NCBI GenBank assembly: GCA_018141845.1
Contig: CP073340.1
Coordinates: forward strand, 1,637,001 to 1,701,000
From: Lachnospiraceae bacterium oral taxon 096
Lineage (GTDB): Bacteria; Bacillota; Clostridia; Lachnospirales; Lachnospiraceae
DNA: 64,000 nucleotides
Direction: 5' to 3'
The position numbers and the translations under genes are program-made. This document shows positions 37,215 to 62,650 of this stretch, one piece after another. The notes under the pieces were generated by a model. That model searched no databases and was not told where the DNA came from. It saw only the letters and a list, made by a program, of their open reading frames with translations. Every line of letters starts with the position of its first letter. The first letter of the stretch is position 1.

Positions 37215-37237
37215 CAGAGATGAAAATGTGCCTATTT

Positions 37238-37292
37238 TGGTAGTTTTTATCCATAAGAGACGATATGTAACTTTCATAAAAACCAGTTTTTA
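37238..37292 (+). terminator. Possible terminator after ybaK
   Basis: Arms TGG-GTTTTTAT (37238-37250) and ATAAAAACCA (37276-37285) with a two-base bulge, followed by GTTTTT. The loop is long (about 25 bases), so confidence is moderate. Confidence 0.5.
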
Positions 37293-37328
37293 AATTCTTT
37301 ATAGTAAAAAAAGAATCTAAAAAAGGGC

Positions 37329-37357
37329 TGGACTTTGAAAAAAAGTTGTGCTACCAT
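37329..37357 (+). promoter_or_regulatory. Promoter of the noncoding region
   Basis: TGGACT (37329-37334) and TACCAT (37352-37357) are 17 bases apart with an extended TG before the -10. No protein gene begins for about 1.1 kb, so it would start an RNA gene near 37364. Confidence 0.5.
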
Positions 37358-37358
37358 T

Positions 37359-37540
37359 TGGGCAACGAAACGAATAGTGAATAGTCATAAGAGTTGCCTA
37401 AATATTCAGAGGAAGATATTATCATCCATCTTAAATTTTAAGTTGTTCTGACCTTTGTGAGAATATGGCCATTGAGACTGTGGAACATTCCATAGTATTC
37501 GATAGGAGTATATTATTTCACACAGAGGTCAGTTTTTTTT
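37359..37540 (+). ncRNA. Candidate structured small RNA with its own terminator
   Basis: From about 37364 to 37540 the sequence has a 5' hairpin (GGGCAAC at 37360 with GTTGCC near 37396) and a large 3' hairpin whose closing arms CTGACCTTTGTG (37449-37460) and CACACAGAGGTCAG (37519-37532) enclose an inner CTGTGGAA/TTCCATAG stem-loop, followed by eight T's. No ribosome site or meaningful frame is seen. It does not look like 6S, SRP or tmRNA to me. Family unknown. Confidence 0.45.
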
Positions 37541-38250
37541 GTGTCTCTGTGTGAGTATGAAAGTGTATAAAAATTTTATTTTCAAGAGAACAGGGAAAGG
37601 AGACACAAATGGGCGGAAAATATTGTGGTTACGGGTATCCCCCGTAACTTTGAGCCGAAGTTTACAAAAAATCAAATGGTGTGATGCGACGAACCAAGCG
37701 TAAGTTGCCAAAGATACTTGGTCTGCTGGGAGCTATTTGGAGAATATACTGTGTTAAATCAAAATTTCACATACAGGGATATCAATTTATGCCTATTTCT
37801 AGATCATAAGACTTTTGTAGTGGCACATAGAGGGTGCAGGGTGATAGAAGTGGTTCTTCGTTATGTGATCTTGTTTAACTTTATAGTGGCAAAAGATGGG
37901 TCACTAAGGAAATAGGAAACCACAGAATCGATCAAACTGTGTGAGTGCCTCGGAGTAGAGATGCGTCTCTATGTTGAAAGGGGCAAGAAGTGGAGATTCA
38001 AACTGAACATATGGAGGAGACAATAGCAGACTTGTGTGGGAGATGAGGAGCTACTCTGTTGAAAGTATGGGAAGAATGAATTGAGGGTTTATGTACACAG
38101 TGTCATTGTTTATTAACTGCGGAGCAAAGAAAAATTAAACCAAACAGGGAATTTTCTCGATGCTGGGAGAGAGAAAAACTGCCTTGTATAGCGGAAAAAA
38201 CAGATAGAGGTCACTGCATTGTATAGAAAATGTAGTGACCTTTTTATTTA
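37541..38250 (+). ncRNA. Candidate large structured RNA (about 0.7 kb)
   Basis: No believable protein frame crosses this stretch, yet it is full of local pairings: TTTGTGTCTC/GAGACACAAA (ends near 37546 and 37609), GTTACGGG/CCCGTAAC (37628-37648), ACCAAG/CTTGGT (37693-37722), AGATCA/TGATCT enclosing 37801-37870, TAGAGA/TCTCTA inside TGCCTC/GGGGCA (37946-37985), and TTTTCTC/GAGAAAA (38152-38177). It ends in a strong terminator. Purine-rich linkers are typical of large bacterial RNAs. It could be one RNA with the preceding piece. I cannot assign it to ROOL, OLE, GOLLD or RNase P by eye. Confidence 0.45.
38208..38246 (+). terminator. Strong terminator ending the noncoding region
   Basis: Thirteen-base arms 38208-38220 and 38229-38241 (one wobble) with an eight-base loop and a run of T's. 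It separates the RNA region from the response-regulator operon promoter 23 bases later. Confidence 0.85.
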
Positions 38251-38268
38251 TTTTTATCTATGTAGTAC

Positions 38269-38297
38269 TTCACATCTCCTTAAGAATAGTGTATGAT
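38269..38297 (+). promoter_or_regulatory. Promoter of the surface-fibre operon
   Basis: TTCACA (38269-38274) and TATGAT (38292-38297), 17 bases apart. The leader to the start at 38458 is about 155 bases and holds a CGACA/TGTCG hairpin, a possible short reading frame (38344-38436) and an AAGGGCT/AGCCCTT hairpin (38378-38395). GTAGTACT (38262-38269) touches the -35. Confidence 0.7.
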
Positions 38298-38457
38298 AAC
38301 GGTATCGACAAGAGCTTGATTGTCGGAGTGAATATAGGAGGAGATGAGAGAATGCGTGGAAGATAGGAGTGAGTTTGAAGGGCTGTTGAGCCCTTATTTG
38401 TGGTACGAAAATGTTAGAGAGACTGTGAAGTTGTGAGAAAGGGAGAGTATAAGGAAG

Positions 38458-39126
38458 ATGGTTTTGATCTTGGATAGTGACACCCTAGAAGGATTAGGGC
38501 TGGAGTTTACCATCCATAAATATCAACCAGAGGAAGAAGTCACACAAGTGAGGACCGTGGCACAGGCAAATGAGAGAGTAGCGAGTGTTGGAATTGAAGC
38601 AATTAGTTTAATTGTTGTAGACATTCATCTGGATGATGAAGATGTATTGGATTTTGTTGAGGACATAAGGAAAGCAAAGTACAAAGGAAAAGTGCTTGCA
38701 GTGACTAGCTTAAGAAGCTCTGCACAATTTAAGAGGGCAATGAATTTAAATATTGATGCCTATATTCTAAAGGATGATTTTCTGGAAGAAATGAAGCTTG
38801 CTTGGCAAAAGATAGAAAATGGGCAGAAGTATTATTCAAGTGATCTTGTCGGAGAAATTAGTGGGATGGAAGAAGAAGAGGTGATTCTCAGTCGGTTTAC
38901 AAGGCGTGAGCTGGAGGTACTATATCGAATTGGAGCTGGTGATGAAAATGAAGCTGTAGCTAAAAATTGTCATATTAGTGATGGGACAGTAAAAAAGCAT
39001 ATGAGTAATATCAGCAACAAAGTTGATTGTGGAAGACGTCAACTTGTGATTTTTGCTTATCGAAATCAACAAAGAATTGCAGATAAACTCAAAATAGGAC
39101 CCCAAAAAAGGGTCAGAATACAATAA
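38458..39126 (+). CDS. Orphan LuxR/NarL-type response regulator
   Basis: A 222-residue two-component regulator. The receiver (about 1-120) has the phosphoacceptor D55 in LIVVDIHLDD and the conserved Lys in AYILKDD; the N-terminal acidic pair is present as LDSD. The C-terminal LuxR-type helix-turn-helix is FTRRELEVLYRIGAGDENEAVAKNCHISDGTVKKHMSNI. No histidine kinase gene is adjacent. It is the first gene of the operon with the secreted SipW/TasA-like proteins and is separated from the next by 17 bases, so it probably controls this surface system. The upstream RNA region may also play a part. Confidence 0.9.
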   Translation: MVLILDSDTLEGLGLEFTIHKYQPEEEVTQVRTVAQANERVASVGIEAISLIVVDIHLDDEDVLDFVEDIRKAKYKGKVLAVTSLRSSAQFKRAMNLNIDAYILKDDFLEEMKLAWQKIENGQKYYSSDLVGEISGMEEEEVILSRFTRRELEVLYRIGAGDENEAVAKNCHISDGTVKKHMSNISNKVDCGRRQLVIFAYRNQQRIADKLKIGPQKRVRIQ

Positions 39127-39143
39127 TTGAGGGGTGTATAGAA

Positions 39144-39881
39144 GTGAGAAGAAGAAAAAGAGGTTATAAAAAATTAGTGATTGCAGGACTGATGGTGGCT
39201 GCACTTGGATTTTCAGGTGCAACTTATGCTGGCTGGTTGAGCGAGCAGCATATCGCCATGGGAATGGGAACCGATGTTTTTGATGCTATCTTTAAGGGAA
39301 GTGAAGAGGACTATAAGGTTGAACTTTCCGATGGCACGGATGTAGAGGGATTGGAGACTTCAATTAAGGCAAACTTTACAGATGATAAGACATTGTCTTT
39401 GACATTTGAAAAGGGATTGCCAAAGGAGATTTTGACTTCTGGAAAGTACTTAAAGATTTCTTATCCAATCGATTCAAAGGACACAGACAAGAAGTTGATT
39501 GCAAAGGAAAAGGCTGCAGATTTTACAAAGCCAACAGCAGTGGCAAAGGCTGAGTCCTATCGCTCATTGTTGAGCTACAATGGATCGGTGTATGAGCTTG
39601 CAGATAAGGCAGAGGAGTTTGTTGTTCCTGTTGAGTTTAATACCTACTCCGCAGTGGAAAGAAATGATAAGGACCAGTTGATTGGTGTGATCTATGTGGC
39701 ACCTACACAGGAGACATTGGATGCAATGAATGCGGTTCCAACAACATTTGAGATTAGTCAGGCGGATTTAGATGGTCTTCAGACTGTTGACAATGTGACA
39801 GCAGATGGAGATGGCATTATGGTCCAGTATCAGACAACATTTGACTTGATGGTTGATCAAAATAAGGCAGACAATAAATAG
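39144..39881 (+). CDS. Secreted SipW/TasA-type signal-peptide protein 1
   Basis: A 245-residue exported protein. The N-terminus MRRRKRGYKKLVIAGLMVAALGFSGATYAGWL has the arginine-rich start and ATYA-xW pattern of SipW-dependent substrates such as TasA and camelysin. The rest is soluble, acidic and Lys/Asp-rich, probably beta-sheet, with no catalytic motif. The start is GTG at 39144 with AGGGGTG upstream. The signal peptidase of the right class is encoded two genes later. I infer a fibre subunit or accessory; direct similarity to TasA in the mature part is not evident. Confidence 0.75.
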   Translation: MRRRKRGYKKLVIAGLMVAALGFSGATYAGWLSEQHIAMGMGTDVFDAIFKGSEEDYKVELSDGTDVEGLETSIKANFTDDKTLSLTFEKGLPKEILTSGKYLKISYPIDSKDTDKKLIAKEKAADFTKPTAVAKAESYRSLLSYNGSVYELADKAEEFVVPVEFNTYSAVERNDKDQLIGVIYVAPTQETLDAMNAVPTTFEISQADLDGLQTVDNVTADGDGIMVQYQTTFDLMVDQNKADNK

Positions 39882-39897
39882 GAGTAGGGGGCATATT

Positions 39898-40281
39898 ATG
39901 CGCAAGAAAGTATTAGGATTAGTTGCAGGTTTGGGATTGAGTGTTTTGGCAAGTGGAGTGAGTTTCGCTTATTGGACGGATCACTTAAAAGTAAATGTCG
40001 ATGTACCAATCTTTTATCAGGCTGATATTAGTATTAAGGCAACAGAAGAAACAACAGCTGAGGAAAGTACAGAGGCAACAGAAAATACAGCTACAGTGGA
40101 GAGTTCAGAAACTACAGAAGGTGCACAAACTGGTGATTCAAGTGGTGAGAGTGCTGTCACAGCAGAGGCTTCCATTGAAAGTGGATCTGAGGATGGTGCT
40201 ACAGAAAAATCAGAAGTAAAGACAGAGGCCAAGGCAGAAGTAGACAGTGGAGCCGAGAGTGCTCAAGAGGTCAATGAGTAA
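39898..40281 (+). CDS. Secreted SipW/TasA-type protein 2, acidic Ser/Thr/Glu-rich
   Basis: A 127-residue protein starting MRKKVLGLVAGLGLSVLASG followed by VSFAYWTDHLKVNVDV, a textbook SipW-type signal (FAYWTD). After about 45 residues the chain becomes low complexity, made of Glu, Thr, Ser and Ala repeats up to the end. It seems a truncated fibre-like head with a disordered acidic tail; it may be a minor subunit, spacer or anchor. The ATG at 39898 is preceded by GGAGTAGGGG. Its end overlaps the signal peptidase start by eight bases. Confidence 0.75.
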   Translation: MRKKVLGLVAGLGLSVLASGVSFAYWTDHLKVNVDVPIFYQADISIKATEETTAEESTEATENTATVESSETTEGAQTGDSSGESAVTAEASIESGSEDGATEKSEVKTEAKAEVDSGAESAQEVNE

Positions 40282-41479
40282 GGCGAAATATCCACGATAT
40301 CGTCTATATACAGTGCTTCTTTTAATTGCCTATCTTCTTCCAGCTATTCCGCCAGTTAAGGCATATTTTGTTGGATTGGAGTTGTTTTTGTCACTCTATT
40401 GGGTGGCATTGACAGTGATTGTTTGGCGAGTGTTGCCAGGGATTTTATCTCCTGGCAATGTCCGCACACGAACGGAGATGTGTGAGGCAGGATTTGCGGG
40501 AGCATTTATTATCGTTGCACTTTACTATCTGGTTGGTGTAATATTCAAACAATTAAAAGGTTCTCCCTATGACAATTCGCCCGTGGGATTTTTGAGGAAT
40601 GTGTTGACTCTATTTCCCCCAATTGTTGCCAGGGAGAGTATCCGTGCCTATGGAATGGCGACCATATGGAAGTATGCGAAGAAGAAACGCCAATTTTTCA
40701 CCATTATTTTTTTGCTTATCCTTGCGATTGGAATGGCAAATTTTCCAAAGCTCAAGCAATTGACAAGTAACAAGGATATTTTTATCTATGTGGCCAAGGA
40801 TGTTTTGCCCATTATTGCGGACAATGCACTTTGTTGTGTGCTTGTACTTTGGGGTGGAAAATGGGCTGGAATTTTTTATGCTGCCCTTGTGGCAGCATTT
40901 TGGCGATTTTTTCCATTTTTGCCAGATATCTCTTGGTTTGCCTATGCCGTCATTGGTGTGGCCTTCCCATGTATATGTGCGACATTTATGTATGGGCGTG
41001 GGGAGAACAGTGGAAAAAAGAAACTCCAAGAAGTTGTGGACATTTCGTGGAAAGATTTTGTGGGACTGGGACTTATTGTCTTGATGGCGTGGTTTTGGGT
41101 TGGTGTCTTTCCTGTTCGACCGCTGGTTATTTTGACAGGAAGTATGGAGCCAAAGATTATGCCAGGTGATGTTGTTCTCATTGAGAAGATGCAAAAAGAA
41201 GAAGATATTCAGAAACTGTCTGAGGGAGATATTATCAATTTTGACCGAGATGATAAGATTAACATTACACATCGAATTAAGAAGGTAAAAATTGATGAAA
41301 ATGGCAATCGCACATTTATAACCAAGGGAGATAATAATAAATCAGAGGATTCTCAGGAAGTGGATCCAAATGATATTAGGGGAATTGTCCACCATTGGAT
41401 ACCCAAAATTGGATTGCCAATGCTTATGTTAAAAGCAAAAAATGATGTACCAGAGGGAGTTGTTGATGAACAAAAGTGA
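40274..41479 (+). CDS. sipW: Signal peptidase I, S26B (SipW/ER type) with large membrane part
   Basis: A 401-residue membrane peptidase. The N-terminal about 270 residues hold seven or eight hydrophobic spans, far more than the one or two of classical SipW. The C-terminal peptidase has the nucleophile S290 in LTGSMEPKIMPGD and a His (H333) in ITHRIKKV where other type I peptidases use Lys, so it is the S26B class that cleaves TasA/camelysin-type precursors. It lies among such substrates. I chose the ATG at 40274 (MSKAKYPRYR); a GTG at 40247 would lie deep in the previous gene. The symbol is by analogy. Confidence 0.85.
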   Translation: MSKAKYPRYRLYTVLLLIAYLLPAIPPVKAYFVGLELFLSLYWVALTVIVWRVLPGILSPGNVRTRTEMCEAGFAGAFIIVALYYLVGVIFKQLKGSPYDNSPVGFLRNVLTLFPPIVARESIRAYGMATIWKYAKKKRQFFTIIFLLILAIGMANFPKLKQLTSNKDIFIYVAKDVLPIIADNALCCVLVLWGGKWAGIFYAALVAAFWRFFPFLPDISWFAYAVIGVAFPCICATFMYGRGENSGKKKLQEVVDISWKDFVGLGLIVLMAWFWVGVFPVRPLVILTGSMEPKIMPGDVVLIEKMQKEEDIQKLSEGDIINFDRDDKINITHRIKKVKIDENGNRTFITKGDNNKSEDSQEVDPNDIRGIVHHWIPKIGLPMLMLKAKNDVPEGVVDEQK

Positions 41480-42572
41480 TACTGAAAAGGGGAATAAAGT
41501 AGTAAAGAAAGAGCCAGCACAAAAGAAAACAACGCAAAAAAGGCCAATGGGCAATCGGTCACGCGTTGCCCTGTTACTTGTCAGTCTAGTGGCAGTGATT
41601 GGCGGACTGATCGTGGCTGGTGTCGGAACGAAGACAAAGAAAGTAAAACAAGAATCGAATGTATTTACTTATCAAGTGAACACGACATCATCCTATCAGG
41701 TTGTGCTAAAGAATAATAGCATCTATGATACACCAACGCTTGAAGAGGGAAGAGTGTACTCAGATGCACTGACAGATCACATTGCAGTTCAATTAAAGTC
41801 AGAACTTGTGGGCGATCAGGCGGCCACATTGCATGTGGATTATGATATCAATGCAGAATTGGATGGATTTTTTAACAATGATCCAACAAAGAAAGTCTAT
41901 TCAAAGGTACAAAATTTAAAGCATGTTTCTACAGAGCCAACACAGGATGGCAGGGCAACGGTAGAAGAAAGCGTGGATGTCAGTCCTGATTTATTTGCTA
42001 GTTTTGTCACAGAGGCAGAAAAGGAGTTGGGCTCTACGACAAGCAAGAGCATGAGCCTTGTGCTTAGTGGCAAGTATTATATTGATGTCAATGGGCAACA
42101 GCAGACAAAGGATTTTACCTATACTCTGCCAATGCCAATTCGTGGTGCCAACAAATTGTATACTGTCGATAAGCCAGATGCAGCAGCAGATAGTGGAAGT
42201 ATTACGAATTCTACATTGGTCAAGGAGAGACCAAACCAGAAGCTGACTCCAGTGGGTGTCGTTCTTTTGGTTATTGGACTTGGCATGGGAGTGAGTGTCC
42301 TTGTCTTGACCAAGGCACCAGATGAGAGAGAGGCCATTGGCCTAGCACAAAAAGAAGTTGTACGCAAGCAGAGAAGTCATTTAGTGAATGTTAGAGAGCT
42401 ACCTGATTTTTCTGGTCGCATGTTGGTTCAAATCAATGACATTGAAGATATGATTTCATTGTCTGAGGAGATGGGCTCACCAATTCTTTGTGCTCTAGAT
42501 GAGAATGATGTTCCCAAAGATGGTAAATTCTTAATTTTATCTGATACTACAGCATACTTTCTTAAGAATTAG
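41466..42572 (+). CDS. DUF5305-like bitopic membrane protein
   Basis: A 368-residue protein with a cytoplasmic basic N-terminus, a first span (VALLLVSLVAVIGGLIVAGVG, about 38-58), an outer beta-rich region of about 200 residues with YQVNTTSSYQVVLKNNSIYDTPTLEEG, a second span (VGVVLLVIGLGMGVSVLVL, about 260-280) and a cytoplasmic tail with MLVQINDIEDMISLSEEMGSPILC. This layout matches DUF5305, a family often found with SipW-type peptidases. It might assemble or anchor the fibre. AGAGGGAG precedes the ATG, which overlaps the peptidase stop. Confidence 0.75.
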   Translation: MNKSDTEKGNKVVKKEPAQKKTTQKRPMGNRSRVALLLVSLVAVIGGLIVAGVGTKTKKVKQESNVFTYQVNTTSSYQVVLKNNSIYDTPTLEEGRVYSDALTDHIAVQLKSELVGDQAATLHVDYDINAELDGFFNNDPTKKVYSKVQNLKHVSTEPTQDGRATVEESVDVSPDLFASFVTEAEKELGSTTSKSMSLVLSGKYYIDVNGQQQTKDFTYTLPMPIRGANKLYTVDKPDAAADSGSITNSTLVKERPNQKLTPVGVVLLVIGLGMGVSVLVLTKAPDEREAIGLAQKEVVRKQRSHLVNVRELPDFSGRMLVQINDIEDMISLSEEMGSPILCALDENDVPKDGKFLILSDTTAYFLKN

Positions 42573-42627
42573 TAAACGAAAAAGGTAGTAAAGATACACC
42601 AAGTAGTACTAGAAATTAAGAAATTAT

Positions 42628-42633
42628 TATGAT
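42628..42633 (+). promoter_or_regulatory. Possible -10 of the main fibre gene
   Basis: TATGAT 65 bases upstream of the ATG, with no clear -35. The palindrome TAGTACTA (42604-42611) lies 16 bases further upstream, in the -35 area, and shares GTAGTACT with the response-regulator promoter. It could be a site for an activator. Confidence 0.4.
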
Positions 42634-42697
42634 AGAGTATAGGTGTTTGCGAAAACAAAGTTTGTAAAGTTTATAAGTTTATAGGAGGCAATGCAAA

Positions 42698-43753
42698 ATG
42701 AGAAAAACAAACAGAAAGATGATTCTTGGTGGTATTCTTGCCGCAACAATGATTCTTGGTGGAACAGGTTACGCTTACTGGACAGACACATTAAAGGTAA
42801 CTGCAACAGCAACAACAGGTGATCTTGATATGACTTTCGCTGATATGGGTCTTTATGCTCAGTACAGAGATGAGGGTCCTTCAGGAACATGGTCAATCGT
42901 TGATGGCGTTAGTGGTGCAGGCAACAGAGGTTGGGCATCAAGTGAGTTCTTTAGAAGAGCAAACATCAGCTACAATACAATCGCTATTGACGGTTCAGTT
43001 GACAGATACTACAGAGATGCACAGAAGTACAACAATGTAAAGTTTGATGCAAAGTATGCTGATCCTTCAGGTATCAAGAAGACTGTTGGACCATATATTA
43101 AGGGAACAACTCAGGGTAGTGATGAGATTCAGCTTGATATCCAGAATATGTACCCAGGATATGCTCAGACATTCCGTACAGATGTTCTTAATGTAGGTAC
43201 ACTTGCTGCAAAGCTTAGCAATGTTACATTTGATGTTTCAGCTGACAATGATACAGCAGAGAACATGATCGGTATTGCTGTATACTCATGGCAGGAGGAT
43301 TCACCAAAGGTTGCTGATGGATCAGATGTATTTAAGCTTGTAAAGAGCCTTAACCTTGACCCTAGCCAGTACTTCACAGTTGGTGGTGTTGACTTCGTAA
43401 GATTGTCAGCATTGAAGAACATTGACCAGAATGTGATCAAGAACGCAATCACAAATGGCGAAGTTTTGACAAGCCCAGCAACATCAAACAGATTGGACAT
43501 CTTTGTTGGCGTAGCTATGGATCCAGATGCTGAGGGTGTTTACACAACAGGTAGCGTTAACAACATGAAGGAGAACGACGATTCATTGTCACAGGACAAG
43601 AATGCTAAGGTTACAATCAACTTCCTCTGGGATCAGTTCAATGCTGGTAAAGAAGTAAATACTACAAACATTCTTCAGAGACAGAATGCAGACAAGAATG
43701 CAGCTCCAGCTACAACAGCAGCTCCAGCTACAGCAGCTGTAAAGGGCGCATAA
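42698..43753 (+). CDS. Secreted SipW/TasA-type major surface protein 3
   Basis: A 351-residue exported protein starting MRKTNRKMILGGILAATMIL followed by GGTGYAYWTDTLKVTATATTG: again the AYWTD SipW-type signal. The mature part carries TTGDLDMTF, IKGTTQGSDEIQLDIQNMYPGYAQTFRTDVLNVGTLAAKLSNVTF, which is like the Ig/TasA fold where the first strands follow the signal. It ends with Ala/Pro/Thr-rich repeats. Codon use (CTT, GGT, TCA) differs from neighbours and is like ribosomal genes, suggesting high expression. AGGAGG lies eleven bases before the ATG. I see it as the main fibre or layer subunit. Confidence 0.82.
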   Translation: MRKTNRKMILGGILAATMILGGTGYAYWTDTLKVTATATTGDLDMTFADMGLYAQYRDEGPSGTWSIVDGVSGAGNRGWASSEFFRRANISYNTIAIDGSVDRYYRDAQKYNNVKFDAKYADPSGIKKTVGPYIKGTTQGSDEIQLDIQNMYPGYAQTFRTDVLNVGTLAAKLSNVTFDVSADNDTAENMIGIAVYSWQEDSPKVADGSDVFKLVKSLNLDPSQYFTVGGVDFVRLSALKNIDQNVIKNAITNGEVLTSPATSNRLDIFVGVAMDPDAEGVYTTGSVNNMKENDDSLSQDKNAKVTINFLWDQFNAGKEVNTTNILQRQNADKNAAPATTAAPATAAVKGA

Positions 43754-43809: not shown

Positions 43810-43849
43810 GCCATTCATCCCATGGTCTTTAGACCATGGGATGAATGGC
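43810..43849. repeat. Left-end hairpin of the IS element
   Basis: Perfect inverted repeat: 19-base arms 43810-43828 and 43831-43849 with a TT loop. This may be the transposase-recognised end and, as RNA, also a hairpin behind the upstream gene. Confidence 0.8.
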
Positions 43850-43901: not shown

Positions 43902-43956
43902 CTATAATATACATATAGGAAATCCTATTTCCGAATCTATGAAAGGAGAAAACCGT

Positions 43957-45207
43957 ATGTATCTTACTGTAAAACAACAAGTTAAACATCTGTCCAAGGA
44001 AGACTACATCACAATCAGAGAACTTTGTCATACTGCTAAGAATCTTGCTAATGAGGCAATCTATAATGTGCGTCAGTATTATTTTACAGAAGGTGAATTT
44101 CTCAAATATGAGAAGAATTACACTCTTTTAAAGAATAGTCCTAATTATAAGGCATTAAATTCCAATATGGCACAGCAGATACTTAAAGAGGTTGATGGTT
44201 CGTTTAAATCATTTTTTGGTCTGCTTAAACTGGTCAAGCAAGGAAAATATGCCTTTACGGATTGTAAACTGCCATATTATCTTCCAAAAGATGGATACAC
44301 AACACTGATCATTGGTTTTGTAAGACTTAATGGTAATAAGCTGATCCTTCCGTTTTCCAATAGTTTTAAAAAAACGCATAAGTCTGTTGAAATTACGATA
44401 CCGCCAATACTTCTTGATAAGACGATAAAAGAGATACGCATTATACCTAAGGCGAATGCAAGGTTCTTTGAAATCCAGTATATATATGAAGCTGAATGTA
44501 TTCAAAGAAATCTAAACATGAATAACGCACTTGCTCTTGACCTAGGTATCAATAATCTCGTAACAGCCGTATCAAATATTGGTAAATCGTTCATTATTGA
44601 TGGAAAAAGACTTAAATCTATCAATCAGTGGTTTAATAAAGAAAATACCCGTTTACAATCGATAAAAGATAAACAGCATTTTGGTAGGAAACCTACAAAC
44701 AGACAAAAAGCAGCAGCTCGTAACCGCAACAATAAGGTGAACGACTATATGAACAAAACTGCACGCAAGGTAATAGATTATTGTATTCACAATGATATAG
44801 GTACGCTTGTTGTTGGTTACAATGAAACTTTTCAACGCAATAGTCATATGGGAAAGCAAAACAATCAAAATTTTGTAAATATTCCTTATGGACAGTTACG
44901 TAACAAATTGGAATATCTTTGCAAACTAAATGAAATTGTTTTTGTAAAACAGGAAGAATCCTATACATCTAAGTCATCTTTTTGGGATAGAGACAATATA
45001 CCTGTTTACAATGCCGATAATCCAAAAGAGTATCAGTTTAGCGGCAGAAGATTACAGCGTGGTCTATACAAAACGGCAAGTGGTAAAACAATCAATGCAG
45101 ATGTTAACGGAGCATTGAATATCATGCGTAAAAGTAGAGTTGTGGATATGAATATCCTATACAGTAGAGGCGAAGTGGACACGCCTATAAGAATAAGGAT
45201 TGCCTAA
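43957..45207 (+). CDS. tnpB: TnpB, RNA-guided endonuclease of an IS200/IS605 element
   Basis: A 416-residue TnpB. The RuvC triad is intact: D195 in ALALDLGINNL, E290 in VVGYNETFQ and D382 in INADVNGALNI. The zinc ribbon cysteines found in classical TnpB (two CxxC) are absent; the segment reads EESYTSKSSFWDRDNIPVYN, as in a known subgroup. So nuclease activity seems possible. The start at 43957 has AAAGGAGA upstream. The guide RNA is expected to come from the element's right end, with the guide beginning at about 45298. No tnpA is present. Confidence 0.92.
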   Translation: MYLTVKQQVKHLSKEDYITIRELCHTAKNLANEAIYNVRQYYFTEGEFLKYEKNYTLLKNSPNYKALNSNMAQQILKEVDGSFKSFFGLLKLVKQGKYAFTDCKLPYYLPKDGYTTLIIGFVRLNGNKLILPFSNSFKKTHKSVEITIPPILLDKTIKEIRIIPKANARFFEIQYIYEAECIQRNLNMNNALALDLGINNLVTAVSNIGKSFIIDGKRLKSINQWFNKENTRLQSIKDKQHFGRKPTNRQKAAARNRNNKVNDYMNKTARKVIDYCIHNDIGTLVVGYNETFQRNSHMGKQNNQNFVNIPYGQLRNKLEYLCKLNEIVFVKQEESYTSKSSFWDRDNIPVYNADNPKEYQFSGRRLQRGLYKTASGKTINADVNGALNIMRKSRVVDMNILYSRGEVDTPIRIRIA

Positions 45208-59285: not shown

Positions 59286-61880
59286 ATGAGTAAGGATATC
59301 ATCGATAGTGTGGAAAAATTGCAAGAGAGGTTAAAGAAGATGCGCGCTGCGCAGAAAGAATTTGCAACATTTTCACAAGAAAAGGTAGACGCAATTTTTT
59401 ATGCGGCTGCAATGGCTGCCGATAAGGCAAGAATCCCATTGGCAAAGTTGGCTGTTGAAGAGACAGGAATGGGTGTCATGGAGGATAAGGTTATTAAAAA
59501 CCATTTCGCTTCAGAGTATATCTACAACGCATACAAAGACACAAAGACAGTAGGTGTTGTCGAAGAGGACAAGGCAGCAGGTTTGAAGAAGATTGCTGAG
59601 CCAATCGGTATTGTCGCAGCGGTTATCCCTACGACGAACCCAACATCTACAGCAATCTTTAAGACATTGGTTTGCTTAAAGACAAGAAATGCAATTATTA
59701 TCAGCCCACACCCAAGAGCAAAGGCTTGTACAATTGCAGCAGCAAAGGTTGTTTTAGATGCAGCAGTTAAGGCTGGAGCACCAGAGGGAATTATTTCTTG
59801 GATCGATGTGCCAAGCCTTGAGTTGACCAATGAGGTTATGCGCGATGCAGATATTATCTTGGCTACAGGTGGTCCTGGAATGGTTCATGCAGCATATTCA
59901 TCAGGAAAGCCAGCTCTTGGTGTTGGTGCAGGTAATACCCCAGTAATTATTGATGATACAGCAGATGTTGTATTGGCCGTAAACTCCATTATTCATTCAA
60001 AGACATTTGATAACGGTATGATTTGTGCTTCTGAGCAGTCAGTGACTGTACTTGACAAGGTATATGATCAGGCAAAGAAGGAATTTCTTGCAAGAGGATG
60101 TTACTTCTTAAAGAAGGACGAGCTTGATAAGGTGAGAAAGACGATCTTAATCAATGGTGCCCTCAATGCAAAGATTGTAGGTCAGAGTGCACACACCATT
60201 GCAAAACTTGCTGGAGTCAATGTTCCAGAAGCAACAAAAATCTTAATTGGTGAGGTGACTTCTGTAGATATCAGTGAGGAGTTTGCACACGAGAAGCTTT
60301 CCCCTGTACTGGCAATGTATAGAGCAAAGGATTTTGATGAGGCTCTTCAAAAGGCAGCAAAGTTAGTAGCAGATGGTGGTTATGGTCATACATCTTCTCT
60401 CTATGTTTCTACAACAGAGACAGAAAAGATGCATAAGCATGCTGAGGCAATGAAGACTTGTCGTATCTTAATCAATACGCCAGCATCACAAGGTGGTATT
60501 GGTGATCTTTATAACTTTAAGCTCACTCCATCACTTACACTTGGCTGTGGTTCATGGGGCGGAAACTCCGTATCTGAGAATGTGGGTGTAAAGCATCTTT
60601 TAAACATCAAGACAGTAGCAGAGAGGAGAGAGAATATGCTTTGGTTTAGAGTTCCAGAGAAGGTATACTTTAAGAAGGGTTGCATGGAGACTGCTCTTGA
60701 TGAGCTTGGCACAGTAATGCACAAGAAGAAAGCATTTATTGTTACAGATTCCTTCCTCTACAAGAATGGCAATACAAAGCCAATCACAGATAAGTTAGAC
60801 AAGATGGGCATTGTATATACTTGCTTCTATGAGATTGCACCAGACCCAACATTGCAGAGTGCAAGAAAAGGTGTTGAGGCCATGAGAGCATTTGAGCCAG
60901 ATGTCATCATCGCTCTTGGTGGTGGTTCTGCAATGGATGCAGGAAAGATTATGTGGGTAATGTATGAGCATCCAGAGGCAAACTTTGAAGATATGGCTAT
61001 GGACTTTATGGATATTCGCAAGAGAATCTATACATTCCCAACAATGGGTCAGAAGGCTTACTTTGTTGCTATCCCAACATCTTCAGGAACTGGTTCAGAG
61101 GTTACACCATTTGCCATCATTACAGATGCAGAGACAGGTGTAAAGTGGCCAATTACAGATTATCAATTGATGCCAAATATGGCAATTGTTGATGCTGACA
61201 ACATGATGACTCAGCCAAAGGGATTGACTGCTGCATCAGGTATTGATGTACTCACTCATGCTTTGGAGGCCTATGTATCGATGATGGCATCAAGCTATAC
61301 CGATGGTATTGCACTCAAGGCAATGAAGCTTGTGTTTGAGTATTTGCCATCTGCATATGAAAACGGTGCGAATGATCCAATTGCAAGAGAGAGAATGTCT
61401 GAGGCATCTTGCCTTGCAGGTATGGCCTTTGCCAATGCATTCCTTGGTGTGAACCACTCTATGGCTCATAAATTAGGTGCTTTCCACCACATTCCACATG
61501 GACTTGCCAATGCAGTAATCTTGACAAGAGTTATGCGCTACAATGCAGATCCAGTGCCAACAAAGATGGGAACATTCCCACAGTATACATATCCACATAC
61601 AAAGGAGCGCTATGTTGAGTGTGCGAAGTATTGTGGTGTGACAGGAAAGAATGATGACGAAATCTTTGAGAATTTCTTGAAGAAGATCGAGGAATTAAAG
61701 GATATTATTGGTGTAAAGAAGACAATTAAGGAGTACAATGTAGATGAGAAGTACTTCTTAGATACATTGGATGATATGTGCGAGCAGGCATTTAACGATC
61801 AGTGTACTGCTGCCAACCCAAGATATCCACTTGTTCGTGAGATCAAGGAACTGTACTTAGATGCATATTACGGAAGATAA
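59286..61880 (+). CDS. adhE: Bifunctional acetaldehyde-CoA/alcohol dehydrogenase
   Basis: An 864-residue AdhE. The N-terminal aldehyde dehydrogenase half (about 1-440) has the catalytic Cys in [13 protein letters not shown] and [10 protein letters not shown]; the C-terminal iron alcohol dehydrogenase half starts near 460, with [35 protein letters not shown] and the iron-binding [14 protein letters not shown]. It reduces acetyl-CoA to ethanol and reoxidises NADH, and usually forms spirosomes. Codon use suggests high expression. The APH-like kinase follows 20 bases later. Confidence 0.98.
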
Positions 61881-61900
61881 TAGAAAGTAGGAAGAAAACT

Positions 61901-62650
61901 ATGGACTTTGAAGAGATCATTGTAAGTAGAAAGAATAAGACGGTTTATCGAAATGGCAACACCGTAGTTAAGGTATTTGAAAAAGGTCACAATAAAGGAA
62001 ATATCTTTGCTGAGGCAGTCAACACAGCCCGCATGGAAGAGTGCGGAGTTCCAGCTGCAAAGGTAATTTCTGTAGGCGAGCTTGGCGACAGACATGCCAT
62101 CACTTTGGAGAGGATTGAGGGACAGACGCTTGAGGAGTTGATGCAGGCACATCCAGAGAAGATGGATGAGTATTTGAATACTTTTGTAGATTTGCAATTG
62201 TCTATTCATCAGAAGAATTGCCTACTTTTGACCGATTTGAAGGCAAAGTACAGAAGAATGATTGAGGGCATGACTGACATTGGAGACAACACCAAGTATG
62301 AGATTTTGACAAGACTTGATGGTATGAAGAGCCATAACAAGATTTGTCATGGAGATTTCAACCCAAGCAATGTGATTATCACAAAGGACAACAAGGCGTA
62401 TGTGGTTGACTGGTCACACACGACAAAGGGAAATGCTTCTGCAGATGCAGCGATGACTTATTTGATCTTTGCACTTAAGGATCAGGCCTTGGCTGATAAG
62501 TATCTTGGTTTGTTCTCTGAAAAGAGTGGAATTGAGAAGAAGAATGTACAGATTTGGTTATCCATCGTAGCTGCTGCACAATTGTCAAAGGGCGTAGAGG
62601 AAGAGGCAGAGTTTTTGAAGAAGTGGATGGATGTATTTGATTTCCAGTAA
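61901..62650 (+). CDS. APH-fold kinase (aminoglycoside phosphotransferase superfamily)
   Basis: A 249-residue kinase-like protein. The N-lobe has TVYRNGNTVVKVFEKG with the ATP-lysine, and the catalytic loop is KICHGDFNPSNVII with the Asp, followed by the metal-binding VVDWSH. It resembles the small APH-type proteins of fibrobacter and clostridia (TIGR02172-like), whose substrate is unknown. The preceding adhE is on the same strand after 20 bases, so it may be co-transcribed, but no shared function is known. It need not be a resistance gene. GTAGGAAG precedes the start. Confidence 0.87.
   Translation: MDFEEIIVSRKNKTVYRNGNTVVKVFEKGHNKGNIFAEAVNTARMEECGVPAAKVISVGELGDRHAITLERIEGQTLEELMQAHPEKMDEYLNTFVDLQLSIHQKNCLLLTDLKAKYRRMIEGMTDIGDNTKYEILTRLDGMKSHNKICHGDFNPSNVIITKDNKAYVVDWSHTTKGNASADAAMTYLIFALKDQALADKYLGLFSEKSGIEKKNVQIWLSIVAAAQLSKGVEEEAEFLKKWMDVFDFQ

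Follow-up and report, generated by a model that had tools for sequence, protein, structure and literature searches.

What does a bacterial operon make when it couples three exported proteins to a signal peptidase of its own? The question is raised by a locus in the complete, 2.24 Mb genome of Lachnospiraceae bacterium oral taxon 096 (GenBank assembly GCA_018141845.1), analysed here within a 64,000-nucleotide stretch of contig CP073340.1 (positions 1,637,001 to 1,701,000, forward strand), which we call the window. Six open reading frames (ORFs) on the + strand of the window, at 38458-43753, encode in order a response regulator (RR), a first exported protein of 245 amino acids (aa; P1), a second, acidic exported protein of 127 aa (P2), a signal peptidase (PEP), a DUF5305 protein and a last exported protein of 351 aa (MAJ). 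An earlier reading of the DNA made without database searches (the sequence-only reading) had proposed this six-gene set as a biofilm or appendage system by analogy with tapA-sipW-tasA. All six ORFs are located there, and the analogy is supported. In our view the likely product of the locus is a donor-strand fibre of TasA type that has a dedicated peptidase, a minor subunit and a strand-only initiator.

Results

The last exported protein is predicted to have a TasA-like fold

The best PDB match of the AlphaFold model of MAJ is the TasA fibre, followed by archaeal donor-strand filaments, and the model has a TasA-like jelly-roll fold. For MAJ, structure prediction, which the sequence-only reading had named as a check on its proposal, returned a TasA-like fold. 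Separately, MAJ residues 274-285 (43517-43552) carry the motif MDPDAEGVYTTG, in which M274, D275, P276, D277, G280, T283 and G285 are invariant in 49 sequences. Our guess is that it is a metal-binding loop, perhaps for calcium.

Signal peptides and a dedicated S26B peptidase

P1, P2 and MAJ had all been claimed to carry the rare signal peptide of TasA and camelysin. In a whole-genome scan with TIGR04088 (cut-off 19), MAJ scores 19.6 and P2 18.8 (19.3 with neighbours), and these are the sole two above-cut-off matches in the genome. A scan of the proteins places both below the cut-off (MAJ 17.8, P2 16.6) and gives no match to P1. MAJ and P2 thus fall on different sides of the cut-off in the two scans; the P1 signal peptide is SipW-like as judged by motif and profile comparison, and not by TIGR04088. 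All 49 MAJ sequences compared have T23, G24, Y25, A26 and W28, and a Trp is invariant at the matching position of P1 (22 of 22). Because the solved AbpX chain (9sj2) has a sequence that starts one residue ahead of the matching Trp, the most likely predicted cleavage site of MAJ lies between A26 and Y27, with Trp in the P2' position. Excerpts of a published study describe poor cleavage by LepB when P2' is aromatic, and cutting of TasA by a dedicated archaeal-like peptidase, SipW (PMC10269814).

PEP, expected to have about eight membrane spans, has eight hydrophobic segments by hydropathy, seven of them in its N-terminal domain, and matches TIGR02228 (archaeal-type signal peptidase I) at 74.7 against a cut-off of 51.85. 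A PDB profile search gives SEC11C at E 1.2e-18 versus LepB at E 1.1. Residues Ser290 and His333, which we take to be catalytic, are invariant in 39 of 39 sequences and form a Ser-His arrangement in place of Ser-Lys. By profile and residue pattern, PEP is an S26B (SEC11/SipW) peptidase; under the Bacillus equivalog NF046067 it does not qualify as SipW (66.4 bits versus a cut-off of 190). A search of the host genome with PEP returns only PEP itself, with no further homologue at 1e-5. A single PEP, together with MAJ and P2 as the sole TIGR04088 matches, is consistent with a locus that pairs one peptidase with substrates of its own.

In the N-terminal membrane domain of PEP (40274-41000) P98, Y99, E121, R124, P217 and W221 are near-invariant, and no Pfam family scores above cut-off. 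The E..R motif of E121 and R124 prompted the idea of a CPBP (CAAX-protease) relation, which we regard as doubtful: the spacing differs from the CPBP motif, and the PDB profile search returned only signal peptidases at E <1. An apparent PEP-DUF5305 fusion (P0229, 698 aa, one member) was taken as an assembly or deletion artefact and left unused. Related locus L018, which matches the DUF5305 part of P0229 in 303 of 313 residues, has two overlapping genes, and the joint falls at a short stretch common to both.

The DUF5305 protein, also named by the sequence-only reading, matches PF17231 at 93.6 bits (gathering cut-off 29). Its AlphaFold2 model (mean pLDDT 93.0) predicts a span at residues 30-55, a long-stranded beta-sandwich at 58-254, a second span at 260-281 and a small cytoplasmic alpha/beta domain. 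The PDB matches are many tied immunoglobulin (Ig)-like sandwiches with no clear relative, and the name DUF5305 was found in no paper of the literature searched. Because it is encoded between PEP and MAJ, the protein may serve in assembly or as a membrane anchor.

P1 and P2 resemble the probable major subunit at their N-termini

Profiles of P1 and MAJ align with an hhalign probability of 98.0 over 48 columns, covering the signal peptide and first strands only, and P1 homologues occur in 21 of the 44 related loci described below (BLASTP). P2 is like MAJ at its N-terminus: the mature start YWTDHLKV is identical to YWTDTLKV of MAJ at seven of eight residues. Over the first eight mature residues P2 shares a mean of 4.4 with MAJ and P1 2.75 (20 loci including the window; Wilcoxon p 0.0029), in a comparison of related and thus non-independent loci whose script required the Trp in both proteins, building in one identity of eight, and whose hand-picked P2 list is incomplete (L020 and L044 also carry P2) and retains in the mean a P2 start misread by the script (L032).

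From mature residue 23 on, the 81-residue tail of P2 is 28% acidic and 7% hydrophobic or aromatic, and the tails of 23 P2 sequences are 27% acidic and 14% hydrophobic, compared with 31% hydrophobic in MAJ bodies and 33% in P1. This composition is unlike that of the P1 and MAJ bodies, and no Pfam or NCBIfam family scores above cut-off in P2, in keeping with the earlier description of an acidic minor protein. BLASTP alone finds P2 in 11 loci.

In Bacillus subtilis, the N-terminus of TapA is like the TasA donor strand (excerpts of PMC9674648), and a strain secreting TapA residues 44-57 only is described as forming a proper biofilm (excerpts of PMC10151520). P2 shares with TapA a donor-strand-like N-terminus and, by analogy with the TapA N-terminus, may be a fibre initiator or cap. 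More specifically, we tentatively propose, at less than even confidence, that P2 primes or caps polymerisation as a stand-alone protein, in which a donor strand is carried by an acidic and mostly unfolded tail and an acceptor groove is lacking. The acidity and few hydrophobic residues of the tail would also suit a soluble chaperone, an ion- or mineral-binding matrix protein or a peptidase decoy; the chaperone-like CapP of Bacillus cereus has a repetitive disordered C-terminal region (excerpts of PMC13082335). Such a role is a serious possibility that falls short of probable, as outside the strand motif no likeness of P2 to the other proteins of the locus was found, and in L018, L045 and L046 motif and tail are appended to P1 in a single chain.

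The regulator has lost its adjacent histidine kinase

RR matches GerE (PF00196, 45.7 bits) and Response_reg (PF00072, 37.6 bits), both above cut-off. A histidine kinase lies directly 5' of RR in 28 of the 33 relatives' loci with RR. Ten of the upstream proteins were scanned: seven contain HisKA_3 and HATPase_c above cut-off, and three, from kinase-less loci, are unrelated. The kinase of L025, used as a query, finds homologues with E values of at most 3.6e-70 in eight of ten MAJ-bearing genomes, gives no more than a kinase-domain match in one genome (G198; 5.4e-8), and has no homologue at 1e-5 in the window's genome.

What remains in the window is a short relic. By tblastn, seven of eight kinase queries give weak matches (E 0.12-2.2) to 38380-38409 or a portion of it. 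When 37215-38457 was compared with a matrix built from 27 kinases, the highest-scoring stretch of 12 residues was FEGLLSPYLWYE (38374-38409), with a score of 25.7 versus a shuffled mean of 15.7 (standard deviation (sd) 1.9, maximum 22.4; 0 of 300 as high), in a test made after the tblastn matches were known. The ORF that holds it sits where relatives have the end of the kinase, which indicates that a kinase was once here and has since been lost. The regulator without kinase that the sequence-only reading described is, on this sequence evidence, an orphan by loss of the adjacent kinase.

The receiver of RR retains Asp55, T83 and K105, and its acidic pair is D-S, the second residue being changed to Ser. 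The receiver residues read DDHDTK in 27 of 28 kinase-bearing loci, the exception (L032) having E at the first place and a short ORF. Where the adjacent kinase is missing they read DSDDTK (window), DSSDCK (L041), DNQEAK (L049), DDQGAR (L050), DDHDSK (L045) and DDHDTK (L046). Intact receiver sites are thus found in 27 of 28 loci with and two of six without the kinase (Fisher p 0.0015, the loci being related), and RR may be drifting from phosphorylation control. Another kinase of the genome might phosphorylate RR, so that it would functionally be no orphan. The retained Asp55, T83 and K105 would suit this, and we give the idea some credence while leaning away from it: the L025 query that finds close homologues in most MAJ-carrying genomes is unmatched here (other kinases were not searched for), and Ser replaces one residue of the acidic pair.

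The operon recurs across Clostridia

A profile scan of a species-level genome collection gave 44 related loci (the L numbers used here). The carriers are Lachnoanaerobaculum, Oribacterium, a Filifactor alocis metagenome-assembled genome (MAG), Peptostreptococcus canis, Pygmaiobacter, Clostridium sp. HBUAS56010, Sporanaerobium and many other Clostridia. By BLASTP alone, 20 of the 44 loci show the order RR, P1, PEP, DUF5305, MAJ; as the same order recurs in other genomes, the gene set is not a chance one. MAJ precedes DUF5305 in L049-L052, L055 and L056, and two TasA-type proteins follow the regulator in L057, L058, L060 and L061. MAJ is rare, being present in six of 397 genomes of the family and five of 391 of the class (the window's genome is in both counts). 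Three assemblies carry a second MAJ copy: Lachnoanaerobaculum saburreum (L039, L053), oral taxon 107 (L024, L034) and the MAG S15M_Sa_59 (L021, L022).

MAJ and PEP trees were built from 30 rows each, excluding L057-L061 and loci without both full proteins. Several groups are common to the two trees, which favours the view that the genes are inherited together. Lachnoanaerobaculum groups with Peptostreptococcaceae (96/97) in the MAJ tree, apart from other Lachnospiraceae, a placement that hints at horizontal transfer. Neither tree places the window's own rows.

Codon use and the nature of the major subunit

We computed the codon adaptation index (CAI) against 13 ribosomal-cluster genes of the host genome, chosen by location and first residues. 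MAJ, which the sequence-only reading had described as having the codon use of a highly expressed gene, ranks first among the 46 ORFs of the window with a CAI of 0.808, exceeding all 13 reference genes (0.69-0.77). P1 (0.651) ranks third and P2 (0.578) fifth, followed by DUF5305 (24), PEP (37) and RR (43). The order MAJ, P1, P2, then the rest matches what one would expect if these were, respectively, the major subunit, the minor subunit, an accessory part and the machinery. The second and fourth ranks belong to ORFs of 864 and 249 aa elsewhere in the window (59286-62650; CAI 0.693 and 0.618).

Very high codon bias suits any abundant surface protein, and MAJ could instead form an S-layer or sheath that coats the cell as a sheet with no discrete fibres, DUF5305 serving as its anchor. 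We think this improbable, since the top structural matches are donor-strand filament proteins and the N-terminal strand motif is repeated in P2. A secreted, camelysin-like metalloprotease (Pfam M73) is very unlikely: PF12389 (Camelysin) comes just below its gathering threshold (21.9 versus 22.5 bits), yet the match covers only residues 9-48, the signal peptide and first strand, MAJ of the window has no histidine at all, and HExxH occurs in 0 of 40 homologues. Classical sortase-built pili, which would account for several exported proteins and an expected surface location, can be practically dismissed, as there is no LPxTG in P1, P2, MAJ, DUF5305 or the 40 MAJ homologues (sortases themselves were not sought).

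Locus layout and neighbouring features

The features of the locus are collected in Table 1. The genes from RR through DUF5305 overlap or nearly abut, and 125 bases separate DUF5305 from MAJ. This gap measures 88-229 bases in the 27 loci where DUF5305 precedes MAJ, enough for MAJ to have a promoter or leader of its own; on the + strand of the window no terminator-like site was found in the gap. P1 starts with a GTG at 39144, PEP probably with ATG 40274 (401 aa) rather than GTG 40247, and DUF5305 probably with ATG 41466. The promoter-like site 5' of the operon is weak alone, given 25 such sites versus a shuffled mean of 16.9 (sd 4.9).

Table 1 Features of the fibre locus, in positions of the window
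Feature	Position	Strand	Basis
Terminator-like hairpin and T-run, 5' of operon	38206..38243	+	15 pairs, T-rich tail; consensus match only
Promoter-like site TTCACA-17-TATGAT, possible operon start	38269..38297	+	10/12 matches
30-codon ORF with histidine kinase relic	38344..38436	+	Relic segment at 38374-38409; ORF ends 21 bases 5' of RR
RR, NarL/LuxR-type, kinase-less here	38458..39126	+	GerE and Response_reg above cut-off
P1, exported, SipW-like signal peptide (ATYA-GW), candidate minor fibre subunit	39144..39881	+	Profile match to MAJ; BLASTP homologues
P2, signal peptide, YWTDHLKV and acidic tail, candidate fibre initiator or cap	39898..40281	+	Likeness to MAJ N-terminus; composition
P2 donor-strand-like segment, first 12 residues past predicted cleavage	39970..40005	+	
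PEP, S26B: seven-span N-terminal domain, then catalytic domain with own span	40274..41479	+	TIGR02228; hydropathy
DUF5305: span, predicted Ig-like outer beta-sandwich, span, small cytoplasmic alpha/beta domain	41466..42572	+	PF17231; AlphaFold2; PDB searches
MAJ, TasA-type jelly-roll, highly expressed codon use	42698..43753	+	Fold match; CAI
MAJ signal peptide, predicted cleavage between GYA and YWTD, Trp at P2'	42698..42775	+	Invariant residues; AbpX chain start

Directly 3' of the operon is a lone TnpB/OrfB_IS605 gene (43939-45207), with no TnpA-like ORF seen beside it in the ORF list of the window. An 18-pair hairpin just 5' of the TnpB gene (43810-43849) may be the element's end. On the other side lies a candidate structured RNA at about 37340-37550 (window 37292-37650) that ends in a hairpin and T-run. 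Its fold z-score is -4.42 (0 of 200 shuffles as good), and a second genome copy, 72-76% alike, lies at 1422633-1423011 (L093:1501-1879), with both-sided change in one of 51 pairs. The candidate has no Rfam match up to E 0.1 and is absent from the other 149 same-family genomes searched.

Discussion

In the mechanism that we propose, the exported proteins would leave by Sec, and the dedicated PEP would cut between A and YW, freeing the N-terminal strand. Every MAJ would donate this strand to the next, and the fibre would grow outside the cell. P2, with the same strand and no recognised acceptor domain, would start or cap fibres; P1 would be a minor subunit at base or tip. DUF5305, with its Ig-like outer domain on two spans, would act beside PEP as assembly factor or membrane anchor. 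The operon would be controlled by RR, ancestrally via the HisKA_3 histidine kinase. As the kinase is lost and only the relic is left, control in this organism is probably phosphorylation-independent or exerted via another phosphodonor.

MAJ occurs without the partners in L033 (the Filifactor MAG) and L039, where 5.2 and 10 kb upstream were examined, and BLASTP finds no operon partner of L039 within its 20 kb. Two observations weigh against parts of this picture. P1 equals or beats P2 in closeness to MAJ in five of the 20 loci compared (L029, L038, L040, L042 and L043). In addition, drift of the receiver does not always follow kinase loss, because L045 and L046 keep intact receiver sites.

No published account of this locus was found among the matches listed in the literature search. 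Like the locus described here, tapA-sipW-tasA of B. subtilis has a dedicated peptidase (SipW), a jelly-roll major subunit with an N-terminal donor strand and a minor protein with a donor-strand-like N-terminus (excerpts of PMC9674648 and PMC10151520). Unlike it, the present set has an eight-span peptidase and counts a response regulator, P1 and DUF5305 among its members. A folded Ig domain is found in TapA, whereas P2 has an acidic tail and no recognised domain, and the major subunit has 351 aa here versus 261 aa in TasA. We therefore set the two systems apart on peptidase architecture, DUF5305, P1, a strand-only P2 and the response regulator.

The published system that comes closest in lifestyle is sipW-bsaABCRSD of Clostridium perfringens, with which the comparison is by its description in the literature. 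The excerpted account (PMC7395162) gives it a sipW-type peptidase, an LPXTG-free secreted filament protein, further secreted proteins and a response regulator with its kinase in one operon. BsaA was shown to form filaments, and its polymerisation is independent of the neighbouring sortase gene. In contrast to the locus here, that operon has a subunit of about 23 kDa, no DUF5305 as named in the account and another gene order. The B. cereus TasA/CalY/CapP system, as excerpted from PMC13082335, is alike in that it combines SipW with two subunits of TasA type and has a low-complexity region in its third helper. CapP differs in its DUF4047 motif and C-terminal repeats, and that description mentions neither DUF5305 nor a two-component pair.

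Among archaea, the bundling pili AbpA/AbpX of Pyrobaculum calidifontis show weak similarity. The threads of Sulfolobus acidocaldarius are, unlike the proteins here, glycosylated and joined by isopeptide bonds, and the excerpted description names a general archaeal signal peptidase I and no dedicated one (PMC9715654).

Sortase-free fibre building in Gram-positive anaerobes of the mouth and gut is little known. The locus offers a defined set of parts common to mouth and gut genera, a simple hypothesis for fibre initiation and the first functional frame for DUF5305. It is also a natural case of a two-component system that lacks its sensor and retains its target operon. P2 as a primer, if true, would be a natural counterpart of the truncated TapA that is enough for B. 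subtilis. Together with DUF5305 as a membrane-held Ig-like base and the eight-span PEP as cleavage site, it would then define a distinct clostridial pathway of donor-strand fibre assembly, known so far from mouth and gut lineages, one of which would have freed the operon from its sensor kinase.

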